A DNA stretch of 9,373 nucleotides from Tannerellaceae bacterium (GTDB lineage Bacteria; Bacteroidota; Bacteroidia; Bacteroidales; Tannerellaceae). Below the pieces are notes generated by a model, which was not told the DNA's origin, ran no database searches, and saw only the letters and a list, made by a program, of their open reading frames with translations. The stretch's first letter is position 1; each line of letters begins with the position of its first letter. The position numbers and the translations under genes were made by a program. The stretch spans positions 1 to 9,373 of the forward strand of contig JAISMW010000007.1 of the NCBI GenBank assembly GCA_031276545.1, in the 5' to 3' direction. Shown here in pieces: positions 1 to 9,373 of the stretch.

Positions 1-21
1 TTTGCTCCTTGTGACTATAGT

Positions 22-239
22 CACCGGAGGTAAAAGTTTTATTTTACTGCCAGTTCCTATATGCACCGGGAGTAAAAATTCTTTTTTGCCTCCAGTACCT
101 ATATGCACTGGGAGTAAAAATTTTATTTTGCCTCCAGTACCTATATGCACCGGGAGTAAAAGTTTTATTTTGCCTCCAGTACCTATATGCACCGGGAGTA
201 AAAATTTTATTTTGCCTCCAGTACCTATATGCACCGGGG
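22..239. repeat. 42-bp tandem repeat, five copies plus a partial sixth
   Basis: Five head-to-tail units of exactly 42 bases begin at 22, 64, 106, 148 and 190, and a partial unit begins at 232. Units 2-5 are nearly identical; unit 1 is the most diverged. Each unit starts CACCGGGAGTAAAA and later carries TTTTGCCTCCAGTA. These two parts are imperfect inverted complements whose mismatches are mostly transitions, so as RNA many become G-U pairs, giving an A/T-rich loop on a stem of about 14 bases. Because 42 is a multiple of three, the array reads open on both strands as a 14-residue peptide repeat. That openness follows from the period and is not evidence of a gene. Function is unknown. Confidence 0.93.
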
Positions 240-437
240 ATACATGCAACGCGCCTCCTCCTCTGAGGAGCCGAAGCCATGGTAACGCTTATTTCTTAGG
301 TCGAACTCAGGTTAGCAAGGTGCTCCTTGCCCCTGCCGGGCGCCCCTCCCCTCCTGCCGATCCGGTCTACGCTTCCCTGTCCCGTTCAACCCCCGGAATG
401 CAGGCATACACTCTACCTATATACCACAGACAGGGTA
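240..437. other. GC-rich non-coding stretch with small hairpins
   Basis: No gene is supported here. There is a 13-base palindrome at 258-270 (CTCCTC-T-GAGGAG) and a perfect hairpin at 315-330 (GCAAGG-TGCT-CCTTGC), followed by a pyrimidine-rich, C-rich tract at about 329-360. Both strands were looked over for conserved cobalamin, TPP and SAM riboswitch cores and for tRNA-like folds; none was recognised. The stretch could be the 3' flank of an upstream gene outside the window or an untranslated leader, but the sequence does not decide between these. Confidence 0.4.
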
Positions 438-468
438 TTGGGTGAACCGGGCAATGAATCTACTTTTG
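438..468 (+). promoter_or_regulatory. Candidate Bacteroidetes-type promoter of the tetrapyrrole operon
   Basis: TACTTTTG at 461-468 matches the Bacteroidetes -7 consensus TAnnTTTG exactly, and TTG at 438-440 lies 20 bases upstream, the usual place for the -33 element. Transcription would start near 475, leaving a leader of about 25 bases before the ATG at 500. It precedes the whole hem operon, in which no further promoter is expected because all genes overlap. The match is by eye only. Confidence 0.6.
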
Positions 469-499
469 CGCCCGATAACAGGCAAATCCCTTGAGTGAA

Positions 500-2500
500 A
501 TGAATAATGCAGAAAATGGATTGAGAGTAATCAGCCGGAATAGCGCTCTTTCCCTCCTTCAGGTGAAGGAGGTTTTTTCTTTTTTCCCGGATATAAGCTA
601 CCGGCTATCTGCAATCCCTTCGTTTGGAGATAAAAACAAACAAATTTCCCTGATGAACCATATTGCTCCCGACTTCTTCACCCGCGAACTGGATGAAGCG
701 ATTATTCACGGGCAAGCCGATGTGGCTGTTCATTCCGCCAAAGATATTCCGTATCCTCTTCCCCGGGAGATGGAGGTGTTTGCCCTTCTGGAAGCCTCCG
801 ACCCGACGGACGCCCTTGTCAGCAGAAACCGCTACACGCTGGACAGCCTGCCCCCGGGAGCAACCGTGGGAACCAGTTCCGAAGCCCGTAAAACAGCGCT
901 TCTGAACAGGAGACCCGACCTTAACATTGTCAGCATCCGGGGAACAATCGAAGAACGGATAGAGCTGACCGACAAAGGTCTTGTTGATGCTTTGATTGTG
1001 GCTTCCTGCGCTCTGAAACGTCTGGGACTGGAAAACCGGATAGAAGAAAGGCTTCCTTTCAGAACCCATCCTCTGCAGGGGCATTTAGCTGTCGTCGGCC
1101 GGAAAGACCGGCAGGAAATAAAAGCGCTGTTTGCTGCAAACGATGTGAGAAGAACCTACGGGAAAGTATACCTGACCGGTTTCGGCCCCGGTAATCCGGA
1201 TTTATTAACGATCGGAGGCGATAAAGCCCTCGCAAAAGCCCATGTCATTTTCTATGATGATTTGCTCGACGCCTCCTTCCTTTCCCGCTATCCGGGCGAA
1301 AAAATCTGTACCGGTAAACGAAAAGGGAACCACCGTTTTTCGCAGGAAGCGATCAATGAACAGCTTTACAGAGCTGCCATAGCAGGAAAAAATACCGTCC
1401 GCCTGAAAGGAGGAGACCCTTTGATTTTTGCGCACGGACGCGAAGAGGCAGACTACCTGCAAAGCCGCCTGGTCGAAGTGGAAATTATTCCGGGAATATC
1501 GTCGGGGACAGCTTTTGCCGCCTGCACACATATCCCGCTGACACATCGGGGAGTGTCCTCGTCGGTAGCTTTTGTTACCGGACATTCACCGGAAAACACG
1601 CAAACGCCGGACGCCGATACGCTGGTCTACTATATGGGAGGCGCCCATATAGCCGGCATTGCCCGGAAGCTGATTGCCTCAGGACGCCCGGAAGATACGC
1701 CGGCAGCGTTGGCCTTCAATATTTCATTACCCGATCAGCAGTTCTGGTTTTCTTCCCTGAAAGAACTGCAATATTCCCTGGTGAAATACCCTACCCCTCT
1801 GCTGATGCTCATCGGCCGGGTGGCGGCATTTGAAAATGCCGGAGCGGAGAAGCAAAAAATATTAATCACAGGCACGTCCGATGAAGCTTATGCTCACAAT
1901 CCCCATGCCGTTCATACTCCGCTTATACGTATCGACAGGATAGCGGACAACCCCATGCTCAGGGCTTGCATCCGGGAGATTCGGGACTTCGACTGGATTA
2001 TATTTACCAGCCGCTACGGCGTTCGCTATTTCTTTGAAACTATCCGCGAATGGAAGGTGGATATCCGGTCTCTGGCAAAGATACAGTTTGCCTCCGTAGG
2101 GAAAACAACGGCAGCCGAACTGCAGACCTATCAGATTTATCCCGACCTGGAACCGGCAAACGAATCGGCTGCCGGTCTCGTACACTGTTTCAGGGAAAAA
2201 GGAATAACAGATAAATACATGCTGCTTCCCCGCTCGGATAAAGGACTGAAATACCTGTCTGACGAATTGGAGAAACTGGGAAACCGGATTGCGGATATCC
2301 CCGTTTACCGGAACAGCCCGAATGGAGAAGCCGAAAAAACAGAGCTTTCTCCGTACCGGAAAATCATCTTCTCATCACCCTCTGCCGTGGAGGCATTCAA
2401 CCGGCTCTATGGTGAAATGCCTTCCGGAATACAGTTGGTAGCCAAAGGACCAACCACCGAAGAATCCATAAAAAAAACAATAACAGATGCAACGGTTTAG
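500..2500 (+). CDS. cobA: Three-domain fusion: truncated hydroxymethylbilane synthase + uroporphyrinogen-III C-methyltransferase + uroporphyrinogen-III synthase
   Basis: A 666-residue cytoplasmic protein (counted from ATG 500) with three joined enzymes. Residues about 8-217 resemble HemC: R13 in ISRNS, F60, AKDIP with K81 and the catalytic-type D82, GTSS at 124-127, SIRG at 145-148 and ALKRLGLENRI at 171-181. The third HemC domain with its cofactor cysteine (EGGCQ in E. coli) is absent, the GQGA motif is degraded, and one of the paired arginines after TSS is alanine. Residues about 221-447 are CobA/SUMT: VYLTGFGPGNPDLLT, GKRKG, LKGGDP, EEADYL and EIIPGISSG, which bind S-adenosylmethionine and make precorrin-2. 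Residues about 452-666 are HemD, with DWIIFTSRYGV, SVGKTTAAEL, LLPRS and FSSPSAVEAF. An in-frame TTG at 491 is an alternative start; ATG 500 was preferred. The CobA and HemD assignments are firm. HemC activity is doubtful. Confidence 0.93.
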   Translation: MNNAENGLRVISRNSALSLLQVKEVFSFFPDISYRLSAIPSFGDKNKQISLMNHIAPDFFTRELDEAIIHGQADVAVHSAKDIPYPLPREMEVFALLEASDPTDALVSRNRYTLDSLPPGATVGTSSEARKTALLNRRPDLNIVSIRGTIEERIELTDKGLVDALIVASCALKRLGLENRIEERLPFRTHPLQGHLAVVGRKDRQEIKALFAANDVRRTYGKVYLTGFGPGNPDLLTIGGDKALAKAHVIFYDDLLDASFLSRYPGEKICTGKRKGNHRFSQEAINEQLYRAAIAGKNTVRLKGGDPLIFAHGREEADYLQSRLVEVEIIPGISSGTAFAACTHIPLTHRGVSSSVAFVTGHSPENTQTPDADTLVYYMGGAHIAGIARKLIASGRPEDTPAALAFNISLPDQQFWFSSLKELQYSLVKYPTPLLMLIGRVAAFENAGAEKQKILITGTSDEAYAHNPHAVHTPLIRIDRIADNPMLRACIREIRDFDWIIFTSRYGVRYFFETIREWKVDIRSLAKIQFASVGKTTAAELQTYQIYPDLEPANESAAGLVHCFREKGITDKYMLLPRSDKGLKYLSDELEKLGNRIADIPVYRNSPNGEAEKTELSPYRKIIFSSPSAVEAFNRLYGEMPSGIQLVAKGPTTEESIKKTITDATV

Positions 2501-3452
2501 ACCTTACAGAATCTCGCAGGAAGTGCGCGACCAGTATGCCGACACGAGCCTCTCGGCAGCCGATTTTATCTATCCGTATTTTGTTGTGGAGGGAAAAAAC
2601 ATACGGACAGAGATTTCCATGATGGAAGGTGTCTTCCGGCTTTCGATAGACCGTTTGCTGAGAGACGTGGAAGAATTGCAGACTCTGGGAATCGACAAGC
2701 TGCTGCTGTTCGGCGTTATTCCCGGCAACGAAAAAGACAGCCAAGGCAGCCGGGGAACTTCCCCCGACAGTTTGATATGCCGGGCGGTGGAAGCCATCCG
2801 GAAAAGTTTTCCCGGGATAAAGATCATCACCGACGTCTGCCTTTGCGAATATACCTCGCACGGACATTGCGGCCTGCTGCACGGCAAGGATGTAGACAAC
2901 GACAGCACCCTGCCTTTGCTGGCCGAAATGGCCTGCCGTCATGCGGCGGCAGGAGCCGACTTCGTGGCGCCCTCGGCCATGATGGACGGGCAGGTGGAAG
3001 CCATCCGCCGGCGCCTGGACAAAGAAGGCCTGTCTGCACAGATACTGGCTTATTCGGCCAAGTACGCCTCGGCATTCTACGGACCGTTTCGCGAGGCAGC
3101 CGATTCGGCTCCTGCCTTCGGTGACCGGAAAACCTATCAGATGGATTACCGTACCCGCAACCAGGGATTGGAAGAGATAGCCGCCGACATTGCCGAGGGA
3201 GCAGACTGGATTATGGTAAAACCGGCGCTGGCTTATCTGGATATCATTCAGCGGGCTTCGGTACGTTTCCCTTCCCGTCCTCTGGTAGCCTATCAGGTGT
3301 CGGGCGAGTATGCGATGCTGAAACAGGGAGCGAAACAGGGCTTTTTCAGTGAAGAGCAAATCTTCCTCGAAAGCCTGACGGCGATTAAGCGTGCAGGAGC
3401 AGACTGCATCATTTCGTATTATGCAAAAGATTTTGCAGCAAGGCACCCATGA
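2487..3452 (+). CDS. hemB: Delta-aminolevulinic acid dehydratase (porphobilinogen synthase)
   Basis: HemB condenses two 5-aminolevulinate molecules into porphobilinogen in the cytoplasm. The 321-residue protein has the usual family length and is complete. The two active-site lysines are visible: K192 in AYSAKYASAFYGPF and K245 in MVKPALAYLD. The segment DVCLCEYTSHGHCG supplies C118, C120 and C128, the three-cysteine zinc site of the zinc-dependent subtype. RNQGLEE and AYQVSGEYAM near the C terminus are also typical. The ATG lies inside the end of the upstream fusion gene, a 14-base overlap, so translation is probably coupled; its stop overlaps the next start as ATGA. Its product feeds the HemC-like domain encoded just upstream. 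Confidence 0.98.
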   Translation: MQRFRPYRISQEVRDQYADTSLSAADFIYPYFVVEGKNIRTEISMMEGVFRLSIDRLLRDVEELQTLGIDKLLLFGVIPGNEKDSQGSRGTSPDSLICRAVEAIRKSFPGIKIITDVCLCEYTSHGHCGLLHGKDVDNDSTLPLLAEMACRHAAAGADFVAPSAMMDGQVEAIRRRLDKEGLSAQILAYSAKYASAFYGPFREAADSAPAFGDRKTYQMDYRTRNQGLEEIAADIAEGADWIMVKPALAYLDIIQRASVRFPSRPLVAYQVSGEYAMLKQGAKQGFFSEEQIFLESLTAIKRAGADCIISYYAKDFAARHP

Positions 3453-3919
3453 ACAGAGAAGAGCTTCAGTTCTTGCCGGTTTCCATCAATATCCGCCGGA
3501 AGAAAATCCTGATTATCGGAGGAGGAAAAGTTGCTTTTCACAAAGCGACGGTACTGAGCCGTTTCAGTTGCAAAGCAAAGGTTATAGCGCCCCGGTTTTA
3601 TCCGGGCTTTGAAGACTTACCCTTCGAACTGATACCCCGCGAATATACAGCCGGCGATCTGGACGGCGCTTTCCTGGTTTATATCTGTACCGGAGACGAA
3701 GCGCTGAATGCCTCTGTAAAAGCCTCCTGCGAGGAACGGGGCATATTGGCCAGTGTCTGCGATAATCCTTTGCTGTGTGATTTTATTTCGCCGGCTATTC
3801 ATCAGGAAGGATACCTCACGGTTGCCGTGTCATCGGATGCCCGGAATGTCCGCCGGTCGATTGATATCCGCAATCGGATACGGACTCTATTTGAAAATAA
3901 AACAATAAAAATCAAATGA
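3449..3919 (+). CDS. Precorrin-2 dehydrogenase (SirC/Met8/CysG N-terminal type)
   Basis: A 156-residue NAD-dependent dehydrogenase that should oxidise precorrin-2 to sirohydrochlorin, the step after the CobA domain. The Rossmann fold is clear: KKILIIGGGKVAFHKA at 18-33 is the dinucleotide loop of this family, followed by acidic and hydrophobic strands. CDNPLLCDF at 104-112 holds D105, matching the catalytic aspartate of E. coli CysG and yeast Met8. VAVSSDARNVRRS at 125-137 corresponds to the family's A-I-S-T-x-G-x-S-P region, though diverged. The protein is shorter than SirC of Bacillus (about 200 residues) and Met8 (about 270), so the C-terminal helical part that helps dimerisation and chelation is largely missing. 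It is flanked by 4-base ATGA overlaps on both sides. Metal insertion may need a separate chelatase. Confidence 0.9.
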   Translation: MNREELQFLPVSINIRRKKILIIGGGKVAFHKATVLSRFSCKAKVIAPRFYPGFEDLPFELIPREYTAGDLDGAFLVYICTGDEALNASVKASCEERGILASVCDNPLLCDFISPAIHQEGYLTVAVSSDARNVRRSIDIRNRIRTLFENKTIKIK

Positions 3920-4809
3920 TAGAATGTAAACTTATCCATCACGCAGACTTCTCCCTGGAAGAAAGGGAAACTTTGCTTCAGCAGACTTTGCGGGACGGGC
4001 AGACTCCTCATGTACTGCTTAAAACCTGCAACCGCATTGAGTTGTATGAGGGAGAAGGGGATATACCCGACTATATGCTGTACCATCTCTGCCGTGTGGC
4101 TTCAGGACTGGAATCGGCCATCACCGGCGAACGCGCCATACAGGGACAATTGAAAAATGCCTATCTGGAAGCCTGCACAAAATATTCTTTATCCTCAGGC
4201 CTGCACAAACTGTTTCAGACGGCCATACACACAGGCAAACGTGTCCGGAGCGAAACGAAAATCTCCGAAGGCGCTGTCAGCCACAGTCAGGCAACAGCCG
4301 ACATCCTGAAGAAAGAATGTCCCGACCTGAAGCAGAAGATCGTCGGTATTATCGGAGTAAACAATCTGACGGAAGACATCCTGAAATTTTTAACCCGGAA
4401 GCAGTCTGTCAACATCTTTTTATCTAACCGGAATTTAGCCGCTGCGGAAGCTTTGGCGGCCACCTACCACGCCACAGCCATACCTTTGCACGAGAAAAGG
4501 CGTTTACTGGAGTTTGTCGATATCCTGATTTGCGCCACCTCGGCTCCCCATATTCTTGTAGGACGGGAAGATATCCCGGCAGGAAAAGAGATGCTGATCT
4601 TTGACCTGGCTTTCCCCCGCGACGTAGACCCGCAGTTGGCCAATGAAAAAGGAATCAGGCTTTTCAATCTGGAACACATCGAAGCATTTGCAAAAAACAA
4701 CCTCCTGCTGAGAGATAGTGAAATAAAAGAAGCCGAGCGAATCATTGAAGAAGAGATGCATAAATTCAGGAAATGGCGGAATCACCACCCCCTGCAAGCG
4801 CTGCCATGA
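3916..4809 (+). CDS. hemA: Glutamyl-tRNA reductase, short form
   Basis: HemA reduces the glutamate of glutamyl-tRNA to glutamate-1-semialdehyde using NADPH, the first committed step of the C5 tetrapyrrole pathway. The catalytic nucleophile is C38 in LKTCNRIELY. LYHLCRVASGLES and GERAIQGQLKNAY (55-83) match the conserved catalytic domain, and LFQTAIHTGKRVRSETKI (99-116) the following helix. The nucleotide-binding domain starts at KIVGIIGVNN (141-150) and contains DLAFPRDVDP (230-239). At 297 residues it is over 100 shorter than usual (about 410-430): it stops just after the FRKW of the spinal helix, so the C-terminal dimerisation domain is absent. The glycine-rich loop is also atypical. The gene is intact, not frameshifted: it ends in an ATGA overlap with hemL, as its neighbours do. 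Product probably passed directly to HemL. Confidence 0.94.
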   Translation: MIECKLIHHADFSLEERETLLQQTLRDGQTPHVLLKTCNRIELYEGEGDIPDYMLYHLCRVASGLESAITGERAIQGQLKNAYLEACTKYSLSSGLHKLFQTAIHTGKRVRSETKISEGAVSHSQATADILKKECPDLKQKIVGIIGVNNLTEDILKFLTRKQSVNIFLSNRNLAAAEALAATYHATAIPLHEKRRLLEFVDILICATSAPHILVGREDIPAGKEMLIFDLAFPRDVDPQLANEKGIRLFNLEHIEAFAKNNLLLRDSEIKEAERIIEEEMHKFRKWRNHHPLQALP

Positions 4810-6077
4810 TGAACAGAAGCAATTCCATAAAAGCATACGAAGAAGCCCTCCGCTATATTCCCGGCGGAGTAAACAGTCCGGTCAGAACCTTGCGCAGTGT
4901 GGAAGAATCGCCTTTGTTCATTCAAAAAGCAAAGGCTGCCAGCCTGACGGATTTAGATGGGAACCGATTTACCGATTTCTGTCTGTCGTGGGGCGTCTTC
5001 ATCCTCGGACATGCGCATCCGTCCGTCAATAAAGCCATCCGCAAGGCCGTCAGCAAAGGCACAAGCTACGGTATTCCTTCGCCGGCAGAAACCGCATTGG
5101 CCTGTCTGGTACAGGAACATTTCCCCGGCATGGAGAAAATACGTTTTGTCAATTCGGGTACCGAGGCCGTCATGAGCGCCATCCGGCTGGCAAGGGGCGC
5201 CACAGGAAGAAGCACCATCCTTAAATTTGACGGATGCTACCACGGACACGCCGACCACCTGCTGGTTTCGGCGGGTTCGGGAGTAGCCGGTCTCAGGGAA
5301 GCCTCCTCAGCCGGTGTTCCGCGCGCATTTACGGAACATACCCTAAGCGTGCCTTTCAATAATACTGAAGCCGTCGAACAGGTATTTCGGGAGAAAGGCG
5401 AAAACATTGCCGCCATCATCGTCGAACCGGTTCCTGCCAATATGGGGGTCATCCTGCCGCAGACCGGATTTCTCGAACGTCTGAGAGAACTGGCCACCGC
5501 GTACCGCTCCCTACTGATATTCGACGAAGTAATCACCGGATTCCGCCTCCCCGGCGGAGCGCAGAAGTATTTTGGCATCAAACCCGACCTGACGACCCTG
5601 GGCAAGATCTTAGGCGGAGGATTTCCTGCAGCAGCTTTTGGCGGCAGAGAAGATATTATGGCATTCCTGGCGCCCGACGGCCCCGTTTATCAGGCCGGCA
5701 CATTATCCGGAAATCCGGTTGCCATGCACGCAGGAATAGCTACGCTGACACTGCTGAGCCAGGCAGGATACTATGAACATCTGGAAAAGAAAGCCAGGGA
5801 CTTTTTCACAGAGCTGTCAGAAATCATTCCGGAAAAAGATATCCGGCTGAACAGCATCGGTTCGCTCTTCACACTCTTTTTCACAAAAGAGGAAGTCCAT
5901 TCGTTTGCCGATGCTCAGAAAGCCGGTGCAAAGCGGTTCAAACAATTTTTCAAGTATATGCTGGCCCATCATTTCTATATGTCCCCTTCGCCATTTGAAG
6001 CAAACTTTTTGTCGAGTGCACATACAAAACGTGAATTAAGCCGGTTCCTGGAGGCGGTAAAGAATTTTCATGAATAA
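4806..6077 (+). CDS. hemL: Glutamate-1-semialdehyde 2,1-aminomutase
   Basis: A PLP-dependent, class III aminotransferase-fold enzyme that converts glutamate-1-semialdehyde to 5-aminolevulinate. The 423-residue protein is of normal length. The N-terminal YIPGGVNSPVR, the loop VNSGTEAVMSAIRLAR, the KFDGCYHGHAD segment, IFDEVITGFR with the PLP-nitrogen aspartate (D240), the Schiff-base lysine K267 in TLGKILGGG, and YQAGTLSGNP are all typical and intact. The start at 4806 was chosen because it gives the same ATGA stop/start overlap seen at the two preceding junctions. An in-frame ATG at 4773 would add 11 low-complexity residues (AESPPPASA) and a long overlap with hemA. It is the last gene of the operon; no strong terminator hairpin follows, only a run of seven T at 6094-6100. 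Confidence 0.98.
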   Translation: MMNRSNSIKAYEEALRYIPGGVNSPVRTLRSVEESPLFIQKAKAASLTDLDGNRFTDFCLSWGVFILGHAHPSVNKAIRKAVSKGTSYGIPSPAETALACLVQEHFPGMEKIRFVNSGTEAVMSAIRLARGATGRSTILKFDGCYHGHADHLLVSAGSGVAGLREASSAGVPRAFTEHTLSVPFNNTEAVEQVFREKGENIAAIIVEPVPANMGVILPQTGFLERLRELATAYRSLLIFDEVITGFRLPGGAQKYFGIKPDLTTLGKILGGGFPAAAFGGREDIMAFLAPDGPVYQAGTLSGNPVAMHAGIATLTLLSQAGYYEHLEKKARDFFTELSEIIPEKDIRLNSIGSLFTLFFTKEEVHSFADAQKAGAKRFKQFFKYMLAHHFYMSPSPFEANFLSSAHTKRELSRFLEAVKNFHE

Positions 6078-6295
6078 TAATCACACTCCACCGTTTTTTT
6101 GAGCATTTTGCCGACGGATCGTAACGCAGAGTTTGGTTTTTTTAGAGGTACCCCAATGGACGGAAGGCTCTGTCGAAATGATAGACTGAGTTTTGGTTCG
6201 ATTGACGGAATGTTCAAAATCACTGCCATAAGGTTGTTGTTGGATAGCATTTACACGGACACTTTGCATTGGCGATACTTTTTAGGAAAAAATAG
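6078..6295. other. Intergenic stretch without a recognised gene
   Basis: This holds the 3' flank of the hem operon and the far upstream region of rpmB. Open frames exist on both strands but show no family signature, and their composition is not coding-like. The motif GACGGA recurs three times (near 6112, 6158 and 6204), twice following a GAGTTTTGGT-like sequence, but the spacing is irregular. No RNA gene or repeat family was recognised. Confidence 0.5.
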
Positions 6296-6326
6296 TTGTG
6301 CGAATTATTTTTTTTCCTTTACTTTG
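6296..6326 (+). promoter_or_regulatory. Candidate promoter of the rpmB-rpmG operon
   Basis: TTG at 6296-6298 and TACTTTG at 6320-6326 are separated by 21 bases and resemble the Bacteroidetes -33/-7 pair, although the -7 box is one base shorter than TAnnTTTG. Transcription starting near 6333 would leave an A/T-rich leader of about 55 bases before rpmB. The stretch between the boxes is very T-rich. Confidence 0.45.
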
Positions 6327-6387
6327 CGGCCTGATTGTGAGATAGTACTAAGTTTTATAGCATAAAAAACAATATAAAGATACAGAG

Positions 6388-6627
6388 ATGTCTAAGATTT
6401 GTCAAATTACCGGAAAGAAAGCAATGGTTGGAAATAATGTTTCCCACTCAAACAAACGGACAAAACGCAAGTTTAATGTGAACTTGTTTACAAAGAAGTT
6501 TTATTGGGTGGAACAGGACGCCTGGATTAGCTTGAATGTTTCAGCCGCAGGGTTGCGAACAATCAATAAAGTAGGTTTGGATGCGGCTATCAAACGCGCA
6601 GCGGAGAAAGGGTTTTTGAACACTTAA
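6388..6627 (+). CDS. rpmB: 50S ribosomal protein L28
   Basis: A 79-residue basic protein of the large ribosomal subunit. The N-terminal [27 protein letters not shown] is the family hallmark (C-Q-x-T-G-K-x-P-x-x-G-N-x-x-S-H), followed by [11 protein letters not shown] and the C-terminal [10 protein letters not shown]. Only one cysteine is present, so the zinc-binding form is unlikely. It is the first gene of a three-gene operon with rpmG 23 bases downstream. Length and motifs are complete. Confidence 0.98.
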
Positions 6628-6650
6628 CTTAATAGTGGAGGGAATAAATT

Positions 6651-6839
6651 ATGGCAAAAAAAGCAAAAGGCAATAGGATTCAGGTTATCCTGGAATGTAC
6701 CGAACACAAGGAAAGCGGACAGCCCGGCACTTCAAGGTATATTACTACCAAGAACAGAAAGAATACAACTCAGCGTTTGGAATTGAAGAAATACAATTCT
6801 ATACTGAAACGGATGACAGTACATAAAGAAATTAAATAA
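6651..6839 (+). CDS. rpmG: 50S ribosomal protein L33
   Basis: A 62-residue large-subunit protein with the family core [12 protein letters not shown], then [11 protein letters not shown] and [21 protein letters not shown] single cysteine (C16) remains, where the zinc-ribbon form has two CxxC pairs, so this is the zinc-independent (C-minus) type. GTGGAGGG upstream of the start could serve as a weak ribosome-binding site. It lies between rpmB and the DUF4295 gene, the usual Bacteroidetes order. Confidence 0.98.
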
Positions 6840-6853
6840 CAGGAGATTAAACA

Positions 6854-7006
6854 ATGGCAAAAAAAGCGGTTGCAACATTTAAGAAAGGAGAAGGCCGTAC
6901 CTATTCTAAAGTAATAAAGATGGTGAAGTCTCCCCAAACAGGAGCATACATCTTTCGGGAAGAAATGGTACCTAATGATGCCGTAAAAGACTTTTTTGCG
7001 AAATAA
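6854..7006 (+). CDS. DUF4295 family protein, 50 residues
   Basis: A tiny basic protein, MAKKAVATFKKGEGRTYSKV at the start and MVPNDAVKDFFAK at the end. It matches my recollection of the DUF4295 family, found directly after rpmG across Bacteroidetes. AGGAG at 6841-6845, eight bases before the ATG, is a good ribosome-binding site, and the gap to rpmG is only 14 bases. Position and charge suggest a ribosome-associated protein, but that is inference; the role is unknown. In many Bacteroidetes ftsY follows; here a terminator does. Confidence 0.9.
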   Translation: MAKKAVATFKKGEGRTYSKVIKMVKSPQTGAYIFREEMVPNDAVKDFFAK

Positions 7007-7037
7007 GCAACAACCATAGTACGGTGCAAAGAAACGA

Positions 7038-7066
7038 AGCTGTCTCAATACGAGGCGGCTTTTTTT
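7038..7066 (+). terminator. Rho-independent terminator of the rpmB-rpmG-DUF4295 operon
   Basis: AGCTGTCTC and GAGGCGGCT pair as a nine-base stem (two G-U pairs) around the five-base loop AATAC, followed directly by a run of T. It lies 31 bases after the DUF4295 stop codon. Confidence 0.85.
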
Positions 7067-7087
7067 GTCTTCAAGTTTGTGTTCACA

Positions 7088-7114
7088 GGGTAAGCAAAGA
7101 CTAACGCCTTGCCC
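7088..7114. other. Small intergenic hairpin
   Basis: GGGTAAG and CTTGCCC form a seven-base stem with one G-U pair and a loop of 13 bases, between the two terminators. There is no T tract on either side, so it is not a terminator by itself. Function unknown. Confidence 0.3.
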
Positions 7115-7124
7115 GTCTGACATC

Positions 7125-7172
7125 AAAAAAAGCGGGAACGAAACCGGGATGCCCGGTTCGTTCCCGCTTTTT
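7125..7172. terminator. Bidirectional terminator between convergent operons
   Basis: A near-perfect inverted repeat of about 21 bases per arm: AAAAAGCGGGAACGAA plus ACCGGG on the left and the complement on the right, with one bulged A and the loop ATG. The A tract on the left and T tract on the right make it a working intrinsic terminator in either direction. It ends 38 bases beyond the fumarase stop codon on the minus strand and backs up the terminator at 7038. Confidence 0.93.
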
Positions 7173-7210
7173 GGGTTCGGGGGGAAGACCGACTGTTTCG
7201 CTCCCCCAAC

Positions 7211-8827
7211 TTAGAGTTGCGTGAAGAAATCGTTTCCTTTATTATCTACCAGGATAAAGGCGGGGAAGTTTTCCACTTCGATTTTCCAGATCGCTTCCAT
7301 GCCCAGTTCGGGATATTCCAGACATTCTACCTTTTTGATGCTTTCCTGAGCCAGGATGGCGGCGGGGCCTCCGATGCTTCCCAGATAGAAACCGCCGTGC
7401 GTCCGGCAGGCGTCGGTGACAGCCCGGCTGCGGTTCCCTTTGGCTATCATAATCATGCTGCCGCCGTGCGACTGAAATAAGTCTACATACGAATCCATGC
7501 GCCCGGCTGTGGTGGGACCGAACGAGCCGGATGGCATTCCGGCCGGCGTCTTGGCAGGCCCGGCGTAGTAGATGGGATGGTCTTTTACATACTGAGGAAG
7601 GCCTTCGCCGGCGTCTATCCGTTCTTTCAGTTTGGCGTGGGCGATGTCTCGCCCCACCACGATGGTACCCGACAGCGAAAGGCGCGTAGAGACCGGATAT
7701 TTATCCAGCTCTTTCAGGATGTCCGCCATCGGCCGGTTGAGGTCTATCTTCACCGCGTTTCCTTCGCCGGCACGGCGCAGTGCATCGGGGATGAGGCGGG
7801 AGGGGTTGGTCTCGAGTTTTTCAATCCAGATGCCCTCCCGGTTTATTTTCGCTTTGATATTGCGGTCGGCCGAGCAGGACACACCCATACCGACAGGGCA
7901 GGAGGCGCCGTGGCGGGGCAGGCGGATGATGCGTATGTCGTGGGCAAAGTATTTGCCGCCAAACTGTGCGCCAAGGCCTGTTTTGCAGGCTGCTTCCAGC
8001 ACCTGCCTTTCCAGTTCCGTGTCGCGGAAGGCCTGGCCGCCTTCGTTTCCGGTGGTGGGCAGGTGGTCGTAGTAGTGGGCTGAGGCCAGCTTGACGGTTT
8101 TCAGGTTGGTTTCGGCCGACGTACCTCCTATCACAAAGGCAATGTGATAGGGAGGGCAGGCGGCGGTTCCCAGCGTTTTCATCTTTTCCACCAGGAAGGG
8201 AAGCAGTTTTTCGGGCGTCAGCAAGGCTTTGGTTTCCTGGAAGAGATAGGTTTTGTTGGCCGATCCTCCGCCTTTGGCGATGCAGAGGAAGCGGTATTCG
8301 CAGCCATCCACGGCATAGAGGTCTATCTGTGCCGGAAGGTTGCAGCCGGTATTGATTTCGCGGTACATATCCAGGGGGGCGTTTTGCGAGTATCGCAGGT
8401 TTTCCTCCGTATAGGTCAGGTACACCCCTTTGGAGAGGGCTTCCGCGTCGTTTCCTTCGGTCCATACCTGCTGTCCTTTTTTTCCGGAGATGATAGCCGT
8501 TCCGGTATCCTGGCAGAAGGGAAGTTTGCCTTTGGCCGATACTTCGGCATTCCGCAGGAAAGTCAGCGCCACAAACTTGTCGTTGTCGCTTGCTTCGGGG
8601 TCTGAAAGCACCTTTGCCACCTGCTCCTGGTGTTCGGGGCGCAGGAAGAAAGACACGTCATGAAAGGCCGCGCGGGCCATCAGGGTGAGGGCTTCCGGCG
8701 CTACGCGGAGGATTTCTTTTCCGTCAAATTCGGTAATTGATACATGTTCTTTTGTAAGCAAATAATACGCGGTGGTATCCTTCCCCGTCGGGAAAGGCTC
8801 TTGATACTTGAAAGGAGGTGTTGCCAT
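7211..8827 (-). CDS. fumA: Class I fumarate hydratase ([4Fe-4S], FumA/FumB type)
   Basis: A 538-residue cytoplasmic iron-sulphur hydro-lyase interconverting fumarate and malate, in anaerobic Bacteroidales mainly as part of the reductive branch from oxaloacetate to succinate. It carries both the N-terminal (alpha) and C-terminal (beta) domains in one chain. The three cluster ligands are C105 (PFCQDTG), C224 (TAACPPYH) and C318 (GVSCSADRN), in the same positions as in E. coli FumA. Other family signatures are [29 protein letters not shown], the C-terminal [35 protein letters not shown] and KGNRS. The related class I tartrate dehydratase is normally split in two subunits, so fumarase is preferred. 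The gene is monocistronic, has its own promoter, and ends at a bidirectional terminator. Insertion-sequence debris lies about 90 bases upstream of its start. fumA and fumB cannot be told apart. Confidence 0.96.
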
Positions 8828-8859
8828 ATCGCTATAATTTAAAATTGTATTTCGGGAAG

Positions 8860-8867
8860 CAAAGGTA
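8860..8867 (-). promoter_or_regulatory. Promoter -7 box of the fumarase gene
   Basis: On the minus strand TACCTTTG, followed by C, matches the Bacteroidetes -7 consensus exactly. It sits 32 bases before the ATG at 8827, so the leader would be about 25 bases. The -33 region (near 8889) has no clear TTTG. Confidence 0.65.
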
Positions 8868-8918
8868 CGTTTTTTGCCGCTTTATCAGGGGGAAGTTCTC
8901 AAACGGGCTGCAGACGCA

Positions 8919-8947
8919 TCTTAGAAACTGTTTTGATTTAACATTTA
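8919..8947. repeat. Insertion-sequence terminal repeat, copy 1
   Basis: A 29-base sequence starting TCTTAGAAACTGTTTTGATT is repeated perfectly at 9103-9131. Here it lies just beyond the stop codon of the minus-strand transposase fragment, so it marks the right (3') end of that element, reading inward on the plus strand. Confidence 0.85.
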
Positions 8948-9102
8948 CTTTATTCTATTGAGCATAATCTGTATCATTGTCAGATATATCATAGTCTTTG
9001 AAGACACTGTATCCACTTCATAATCTTTGCTGAGCCTTCTGTAACTTTCAAACCATGAGAAGGTTCTTTCCACAATCCATCTTTTGGGCAATACAGTAAA
9101 CT
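8919..9102 (-). mobile_element. 3' remnant of an IS5-family insertion sequence
   Basis: Only the last 184 bases of the element are seen: the terminal repeat at 8919-8947 and the end of the transposase reading frame on the minus strand. It breaks off exactly where the terminal repeat of a second element starts at 9103. The simplest reading is that the second copy inserted into the first; the rest of this one may continue beyond that copy, outside the window. Confidence 0.8.
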
Positions 9103-9103
9103 T
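8945..9103 (-). pseudogene. IS5-family transposase, C-terminal 52 residues only
   Basis: Read on the minus strand, the frame gives [18 protein letters not shown], then [10 protein letters not shown] and a C-terminal helix ending at a TAA stop (8945-8947). The block [21 protein letters not shown] is the conserved end of IS5-family DDE transposases. The glutamate of VERTF is the third catalytic acidic residue, followed by the conserved arginine and lysine. The N-terminal part with both catalytic aspartates is missing because the frame runs into the neighbouring element, where it stops. It cannot make an active enzyme as it stands. Confidence 0.88.
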
Positions 9104-9131
9104 CTTAGAAACTGTTTTGATTTAACATTTA
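9103..9131. repeat. Insertion-sequence terminal repeat, copy 2
   Basis: Identical over 29 bases to 8919-8947 and in the same orientation. It lies 68 bases before the transposase start codon at 9200, as expected for the left end of an IS5-family element. The identical repeats show that both elements are of the same or a very closely related kind. Confidence 0.85.
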
Positions 9132-9199
9132 AGTTTATCAGTAGTCGGTTGTAGCTCTTTTTTTCTTATCTTATAGTAATAGGGACATTACTTGAAAAG

Positions 9200-9373
9200 A
9201 TGAATAAAAGAGCTTATTGTAGCGACCTTCCTGATAAACAGTGGCAAGTTATAGAAAAAATAGTGGAAGAACAAGCCCGTCGTCGAAAACATTCGCTACG
9301 TTCCATACTTAACGGGATTTTCTATTTGGTTAAGACGGGTTGTCAGTGGCGCATGTTACCTTCTGATTTTGCT
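9200..9373 (+). CDS. IS5-family transposase, N-terminal part (cut by window end)
   Basis: The first 58 residues of a transposase that inserts and excises its element by DDE chemistry. The segments [17 protein letters not shown] and [29 protein letters not shown] match the N-terminal domain (DUF4096-like) of IS5-family transposases of the IS1031/IS427 type. The catalytic residues lie further downstream, out of view. Some members of this group need a ribosomal frameshift for the full protein; nothing in this part tests that. The frame is open to the last base. The C-terminal fragment at 8945-9103 could come from another copy of the same element. Confidence 0.92.

Follow-up and report, generated by a model that had tools for sequence, protein, structure and literature searches.

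How can a hydroxymethylbilane synthase (HMBS) work when the domain that carries its cofactor is missing? The question is raised by a gene in a stretch of 9,373 nucleotides from a Tannerellaceae bacterium (assembly GCA_031276545.1, contig JAISMW010000007.1, positions 1 to 9,373, forward strand), hereafter called the window. This gene (500..2497, plus strand; stop codon at 2498-2500) encodes a fusion of a short HemC, CobA and HemD, of 666 aa when read from the ATG at 500; an alternative TTG start at 491 gives a 669-aa ORF. Residues of the fusion are counted here from the ATG at 500, and Pfam coordinates use the 669-aa numbering. Pfam places PF01379 at 11-211, TP_methylase at 225-426 and HEM4 at 472-662. 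The first match (521..1123, plus strand) spans profile positions 1-206 of 207 and corresponds to HemC domains 1 and 2, domain 3 being absent. CobA (SUMT) lies at 1163..1768 (plus strand; PF00590) and reaches 209.3 bits with TIGR01469 (Uroporphyrinogen-III C-methyltransferase), above the cut-off of 185; HemD lies at 1904..2476 (plus strand; PF02602). With TIGR00212, the window HemC scores 180.7 bits (cut-off 164).

The earlier note had described a HemC domain running straight into SUMT without domain 3, and on this point Pfam and AlphaFold2 agree. No match to PF03900 (domain 3) was obtained in the window fusion at E ≤ 10, a scan in which the HMMER filters drop most matches above 0.1. The HemC part is predicted as a confident two-domain fold (pLDDT 94.7) that superimposes on E. 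coli PBGD 1pda with a TM-score of 0.87 (query-normalised) and 38% identity. In the AlphaFold2 model, the junction (1124..1162, plus strand) consists of the last HemC helix and a short linker, with CobA directly after. It falls at the position of the hinge to domain 3 in E. coli HMBS, given as residues 218-221 with the domain limits of PMC3945110. The window HemC ends at this hinge and therefore lacks the residues numbered Cys242 and Arg232 in E. coli. The model of the whole chain has a pLDDT of 81.5 and a pTM of only 0.50, so the packing of its domains is unsure. Within it, HemC helix 205-214 is followed by CobA strand 223-228 with no space for a further domain; the hidden cysteine-bearing domain that the earlier note had thought of is thus not seen in this whole-chain prediction.

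The residues expected of a working enzyme are mostly present. The sequence and the alignment both confirm the arginine of ISRNS (R13), the lysine-aspartate pair of AKDIP (K81-D82), the arginine of SIRG (R147) and the KRLGLENRI segment with R174, as had been pointed out before. To see how far these residues are shared, counts were made over 306 short HemCs, with gaps excluded from the denominators. K81-D82 (740..745, plus strand) corresponds to E. coli K83 and the catalytic aspartate D84, which are kept in 306/306 and 305/306 sequences, respectively. The segment from R147 to R153 (938..958, plus strand) holds the equivalents of R149 (304/306) and R155 (306/306), and R11 (290/291), R132 (306/306), R176 (302/303) and Q198 (300/302) are retained as well. 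The near-complete conservation of this catalytic set indicates, judging from sequence, that the short HemC is under selection. The region HPLQGHLAVVG had been read as a degraded GQGA motif. Its Q193-G194 pair (1076..1081, plus strand; E. coli Q198-G199 by alignment) is however invariant in a 21-row alignment of fusions and, as counted above, its Gln is nearly invariant among short HemCs, so HPLQG is better described as a conserved variant than as decay.

Other residues are lost. One of the two arginines after TSS had been noted as alanine, and this is correct: at 884..889 (plus strand), the first (E. coli R131) is A129 and the second (R132) is kept as R130. R131 is found in 0/81 sequences when the window is taken together with 80 related loci, and is replaced by lysine in 9/81. 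In E. coli, R131 binds the cofactor and its loss is reported to hinder cofactor binding (PMC3945110). Over all short HemCs, R101 is found in 0/306, K59 in 1/299 and K55 in 12/299; the role of R101 might, as a guess, be directed towards domain 3. Among the features of classical HemCs, the window thus displays the PF01379 fold of domains 1 and 2 with Asp84 and Arg11, 132, 149, 155 and 176, and lacks Arg131 and domain 3 (PF03900) with Cys242. The substitutions R131L, R132L, K55Q, K59Q and R232H are described as impairing the E. coli enzyme (PMC3945110). Because several of these residues are missing from it, the short form, which is without R232, nearly always without K59 and K55 and, in this lineage, without R131, may be slow or may have another function.

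The truncation is not peculiar to the window. Alignment of homologous fusions had been suggested as a check of whether it is conserved, and it is: the best 120 fusion relatives listed, one of which is the window's own protein, all show the fusion's three Pfam domains, and PF03900 is absent from 120/120. Only the best 120 matches were listed in each of our protein searches. A profile search with the HemC part also retrieved HemA fusions and stand-alone short HemCs, some carrying the name Prevotella (219 aa), and a third protein search retrieved short HemCs named Omnitrophota or Margulisiibacteriota. The architectures vary: L066:7044-9986 is a four-enzyme HemA-HemC(short)-CobA-HemD protein in a 981-aa frame, L069 is a HemA-HemC fusion, and in P0236, P0275 and similar proteins a short HemC is fused to PF01451 (low-molecular-weight phosphotyrosine phosphatase) or to PF01966 (HD).

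A tree of 108 rows was built from 62 short HemCs, chosen from 310, and 46 full-length ones, with domain 3 and the trait-linked columns excluded and L121 and repeat fetches left out. A branch with 100/99 support, recovered in 200/200 of the bootstrap trees checked, separates all 62 short rows from the full-length HemCs of E. coli, of the order of G001 and of the phylum of G022. With no root placed on the tree, calling the short rows a clade presupposes a root among the full-length sequences. L121 itself is a 251-aa frame closed by a stop immediately ahead of where the cysteine is expected. Taken by sequence, the short HemCs are a conserved family and not an accident. As to their distribution, two contigs titled Treponema (L022) and Babeliaceae (L058) carry Bacteroidales-like fusions and are probably misbinned, which for L022 is a judgement; in the phylum of L058, PF01379 was found in 1/67 genomes. 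The phylum of L078 (titled Elusimicrobia) was not counted since L078 belongs to the only genome with PF01379 among 5.

From these observations, we infer that the window HemC is very probably an active two-domain HMBS that works without a dipyrromethane anchored in domain 3. Of the options raised in the earlier note, a domain working without the classic cofactor is therefore the one favoured by the evidence, as an inference rather than a demonstration.

Two other options would leave the classical chemistry intact. According to the first, domain 3, or even the full activity, is provided by a separate protein. Forty genomes were selected by us from the 80 loci for holding short loci; by construction PF01379 occurs in 40/40 of them, and PF03900 occurs in 1/40. 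A second full-length hemC or a domain 3, which the earlier note had proposed to look for, is thus absent by Pfam from 39/40 of these relatives and present in one (G024). In the order of G001 (L021, Parabacteroides), PF01379 was detected in 23 of 119 genomes, the other 96 having no HemC; PF03900 lies in the same frame in 19 of the 23 and is absent in 4, with frames of 671-737 aa. A Pfam miss is by itself weak evidence, which leaves this option some room. In the phylum of G022 (L050, Marinamargulisbacteria), PF03900 was detected in only 10/74 genomes at E ≤ 0.001. In the same phylum, a C-x-x-P-x-G cysteine was found by eye in 25/25 HemC-only frames of at least 290 aa (L107-L134; 30 loci), whose domain 3 is, on this evidence, very divergent and often missed by PF03900. 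PF03900 alone was consequently rejected as a test for an absent domain 3, and a wider domain-3 model (A5) was built.

This wider model was run on 42 genomes and 12 controls, a search blind to any partner with an unrelated fold. It found domain 3 in 12/12 controls and in G024. Nine of the 12 controls are independent of the model (weakest E 0.007); the other three, G231, G118 and G096, gave rows to it. In the 41 short-only genomes, most of them MAGs of unstated completeness and two of them (G012 and G026) probably misbinned, nothing was found below E 0.05. Two borderline matches, not far above the weakest control, lie in a 65-aa frame of G028 (E 0.055) and in a 56-aa frame of G014 with a stop inside (E 0.073). 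No second HemC domain was found in the short-only genomes except for a fragment in G001, which we rejected as a second copy: with its identical neighbours and an undetermined residue, it reads as a scaffold duplication. The proposal that another protein supplies domain 3 thus finds no support in these genomes, and we consider a supply of domain 3 or of the whole activity from elsewhere very unlikely.

According to the second option, the short HemC is a structural relic within the CobA-HemD protein, and hydroxymethylbilane comes from a second hemC, from the host or from neighbours. This seems to have occurred once. G024 is the only one of the 40 genomes with a full-length HemC besides its short one (L053), and about 3.5 kb separate its full-length hemC from a hemE gene. 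When broken near-invariant positions were counted in 64 fusions of 600-720 aa, L053 had 8/51 in HemC (among them R147S, C170F and R174C), 0/37 in CobA and 1/20 in HemD. The other 63 fusions have a mean of 0.41 broken HemC positions; L037, a fragment, shows 4, and L078 shows 3 alongside 6 broken CobA positions. The pairing of decay with a second HemC is documented by this single genome, G024, which could be a mixed bin. R149S, found alone in L054 (8001-8648, E. coli numbering) in a short HemC that keeps Cys at 172 and the other nine residues checked, is another point in favour of a relic. Elsewhere, however, the active site is near-invariant. Among fusions, the pairwise identity of HemC (0.60) equals that of CobA (0.60) and exceeds that of HemD (0.45), and a short HemC is retained with HemD beside a hemE-like gene in genomes where no CobA was matched. 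As the active-site residues are conserved and the only clearly decayed copy among the 64 sits in a genome with a full-length HemC, the relic proposed in the earlier note is highly improbable for the window.

The genomic context agrees with a role in tetrapyrrole synthesis. In the window, the fusion gene is followed, on the plus strand, by hemB (2487..3452; PF00490), a sirC-type precorrin-2 dehydrogenase gene (3449..3919; PF13241, TIGR01470 above its cut-off), hemA for a compact glutamyl-tRNA reductase (3916..4809; TIGR01035 at 207.3 bits, just below the cut-off of 209.55) and a hemL-type class-III aminotransferase gene (4773..6077; PF00202). The last is the expected glutamate-1-semialdehyde aminomutase, a name given from context and sequence. 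This gene set is the route from glutamyl-tRNA to sirohydrochlorin. The compact HemA aligns best with PF05201 over profile positions 92-151 only, and with PF00745 (dimerisation) over positions 1-20 only, below the cut-off; in the HemA parts of L069 and L066, the best PF05201 stretch is 89-151 and PF00745 is not matched at E ≤ 0.001. Elsewhere in the window, a 42-bp tandem repeat (5.3 copies, 90% matches; 15-238) lies upstream of the fusion, and an exact 29-nt direct repeat (8919-8947 and 9103-9131, 184 nt from start to start) adjoins the start of an IS4/5-type transposase gene (PF13340; 9200-9373) that is cut by the window end. Neither Rfam (E ≤ 1) nor ARAGORN detected RNA features in the window.

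Beyond the window, tblastn (E ≤ 1e-10) on the 80 loci detected hemB-like sequence in 68, hemA in 55, hemL in 50, sirC in 47, cysD in 35 and cysH in 26; none of the seven genes sought was detected in 8/80 loci, many loci being cut by contig ends. PF01077, to which siroheme-dependent sulfite and nitrite reductases belong, was found in 36/42 genomes, in 26 of them on the contig of the short hemC and no more than 12 kb from it. CbiC was found in 8/42 genomes. The six genomes without PF01077 are G012, which we judge to be misbinned, and G017, G025, G028, G030 and G035. These last five have frames of 513-514 aa, identified as HemC-HemD by scan in L042 and L055 (L042:7983-9521 and L055:7971-9512, with no CobA domain matched) and by length in the rest. 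By eye, a stretch resembling the tail of CobA seems to be left between HemC and HemD in both loci. In these five genomes, and in G032, which has PF01077, a hemE-like gene lies directly beside the short hemC; the hemE cut-off is reached in 4/6, G025 and G028 falling just short. Given the hemE-like gene adjoining the HemC-HemD frames, the short HemC seems to have been retained with HemD, for heme, once CobA was gone.

The same context bears on what the short HemC would make from porphobilinogen. It is conceivable that the product differs, for example aminomethylbilane or a shorter chain, and is still accepted by HemD. The cysteine loop has gone with domain 3, and the control of chain length could therefore be different, in line with the function given to this loop in PMC8561815. 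HemD in cis and the siroheme and heme genes nevertheless require a tetrapyrrole, and we regard a different product as unlikely.

If the window HemC is an active HMBS, its chain would start on something other than a domain-3 thioether, and a cysteine in the cleft is one candidate. C170 (1007..1009, plus strand) stands at the start of the helix after strand ALIVA, at the position of E. coli A172. It is present in 120/120 of the best 120 rows listed (117 matched by pattern and 3 read by eye), among them that of the window, and in 80/81 of the window and the loci, the exception being the decayed L053; in the 46 full-length HemCs, there is no Cys at this position, and a separate count gave 0/21. 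In simulations of the E. coli enzyme, A172 is reported to be in contact with the pyrrole chain when this has 4, 5 or 6 rings (PMC3945110). C170 is thus a candidate covalent anchor in the window's lineage, with the chain or the dipyrromethane thioether-bound to it in place of Cys242, in which case R131 would become dispensable. Consistent with this, position 172 is C in 168 of the 174 rows that have a letter there and neither R nor K at 131, many of these rows being close kin. On the tree, C172 changes 7 times and its link with the loss of R131 is reduced to 2-3 independent pairs, which is not significant.

The relocation to C170 does not hold for the whole group. Position 172 is not C (it is A, V or S) in 75 of the 304 short rows with a letter, and the 105 short HemCs newly listed by the third protein search have A in 62, C in 37, V in 4 and S in 2. 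Moreover, cysteine is entirely missing from 19 of the 208 proteins listed with a length of 200 aa or more (for one of the 19, P0232, the C-terminus is doubtful). One cysteine-free HemC, of 206 aa, is encoded in L132 by a gene that overlaps a cobA-hemD gene and also a hemA gene, the latter identified by sequence resemblance only; a PF01077 gene lies about 7.5 kb away. C170 as a group-wide substitute for Cys242 was dropped for these reasons, many short HemCs having Ala at 172 and some being cysteine-free. An anchor relocated to C170 remains a tentative explanation for the window.

Given the cysteine-free and Ala172 members, a thioether cannot be a requirement throughout the short group, and the existence of the cysteine-free members makes a thioether-free start in the retained arginine pocket the most likely one for the group. 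Four porphobilinogens would be joined in the usual cleft, with the usual aspartate and most of the arginine set, and the chain would not start on a dipyrromethane tied to the domain-3 cysteine. As primer, a hydroxymethyl-pyrrole or a free mono- or dipyrrole would serve. The chain could, in the window's lineage, be held by C170 as well, or by C170 in place of the pocket. HemD and CobA, being part of one polypeptide with HemC, would then convert the hydroxymethylbilane into precorrin-2, from which SirC would lead to siroheme. A wider version of this scheme is a serious possibility, short of an even chance: all members of the group (Bacteroidales, Omnitrophota, Margulisbacteria, some of them cysteine-free) would make hydroxymethylbilane without a protein-bound dipyrromethane, from an unanchored pyrrole start held by arginines, and the hold by C170 would be a later re-invention in the window's lineage.

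In classical HMBS, the dipyrromethane is tied to the cysteine of domain 3, and the loop bearing this cysteine is believed to draw the chain past the catalytic aspartate (PMC8561815, PMC3949521). Both the thioether-linked cofactor and the moving loop are regarded as central to the way in which the enzyme starts and pulls its chain (PMC3949521, PMC8561815, PMC3945110). No HMBS without domain 3 appeared in the titles and abstract openings of the open-licence matches listed, most subscription papers being outside the scope, and nothing in the open-licence literature searched suggested that the absence of the cofactor domain has been addressed, in discussion or by experiment. A group that has dropped domain 3, and in part every cysteine, makes the real roles of the cofactor directly testable. 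The related bacteria that apparently rely on the short form alone challenge the view of the cofactor as indispensable, and the short HemC would offer a minimal enzyme for the synthesis of siroheme and heme.

Finally, the window HemC can be compared with known systems. A model of 241 positions named hydroxymethylbilane synthase, NF002202 (PRK01066), is as short as the window HemC, which matches it over positions 12-233, and short HemCs are in places annotated as HMBS. We take it to be the model of Chlamydiales HemC. The window scores 186.0 bits, six other short HemCs score 165.8-216.9 and E. coli HemC scores 141.3; none of the seven short HemCs belongs to NF002202, all being below its cut-off of 251. 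With CobA-HemD fusions and CysG, the window's fusion shares the downstream order towards precorrin-2, and a CobA-HemD gene adjoins the short hemC in L132; the window's fusion differs in having HemC fused in front. CysG is described as uroporphyrinogen III methyltransferase plus Met8p, so without HemC or HemD (PMC7242693). The closest likeness is to three-domain HMBS (TIGR00212; E. coli 1pda), in the fold of domains 1 and 2, the catalytic aspartate, the lysine, most of the arginines and the place in the pathway. Unlike it, the short group has no domain 3, Cys242 or Arg232, has lost R101 and almost always K59, and stands apart in the tree; the window's lineage has in addition lost R131. The window HemC thus most likely works as an HMBS and yet departs from the classical enzyme in two of the defining features that were tested, domain 3 with Cys242 and R131.
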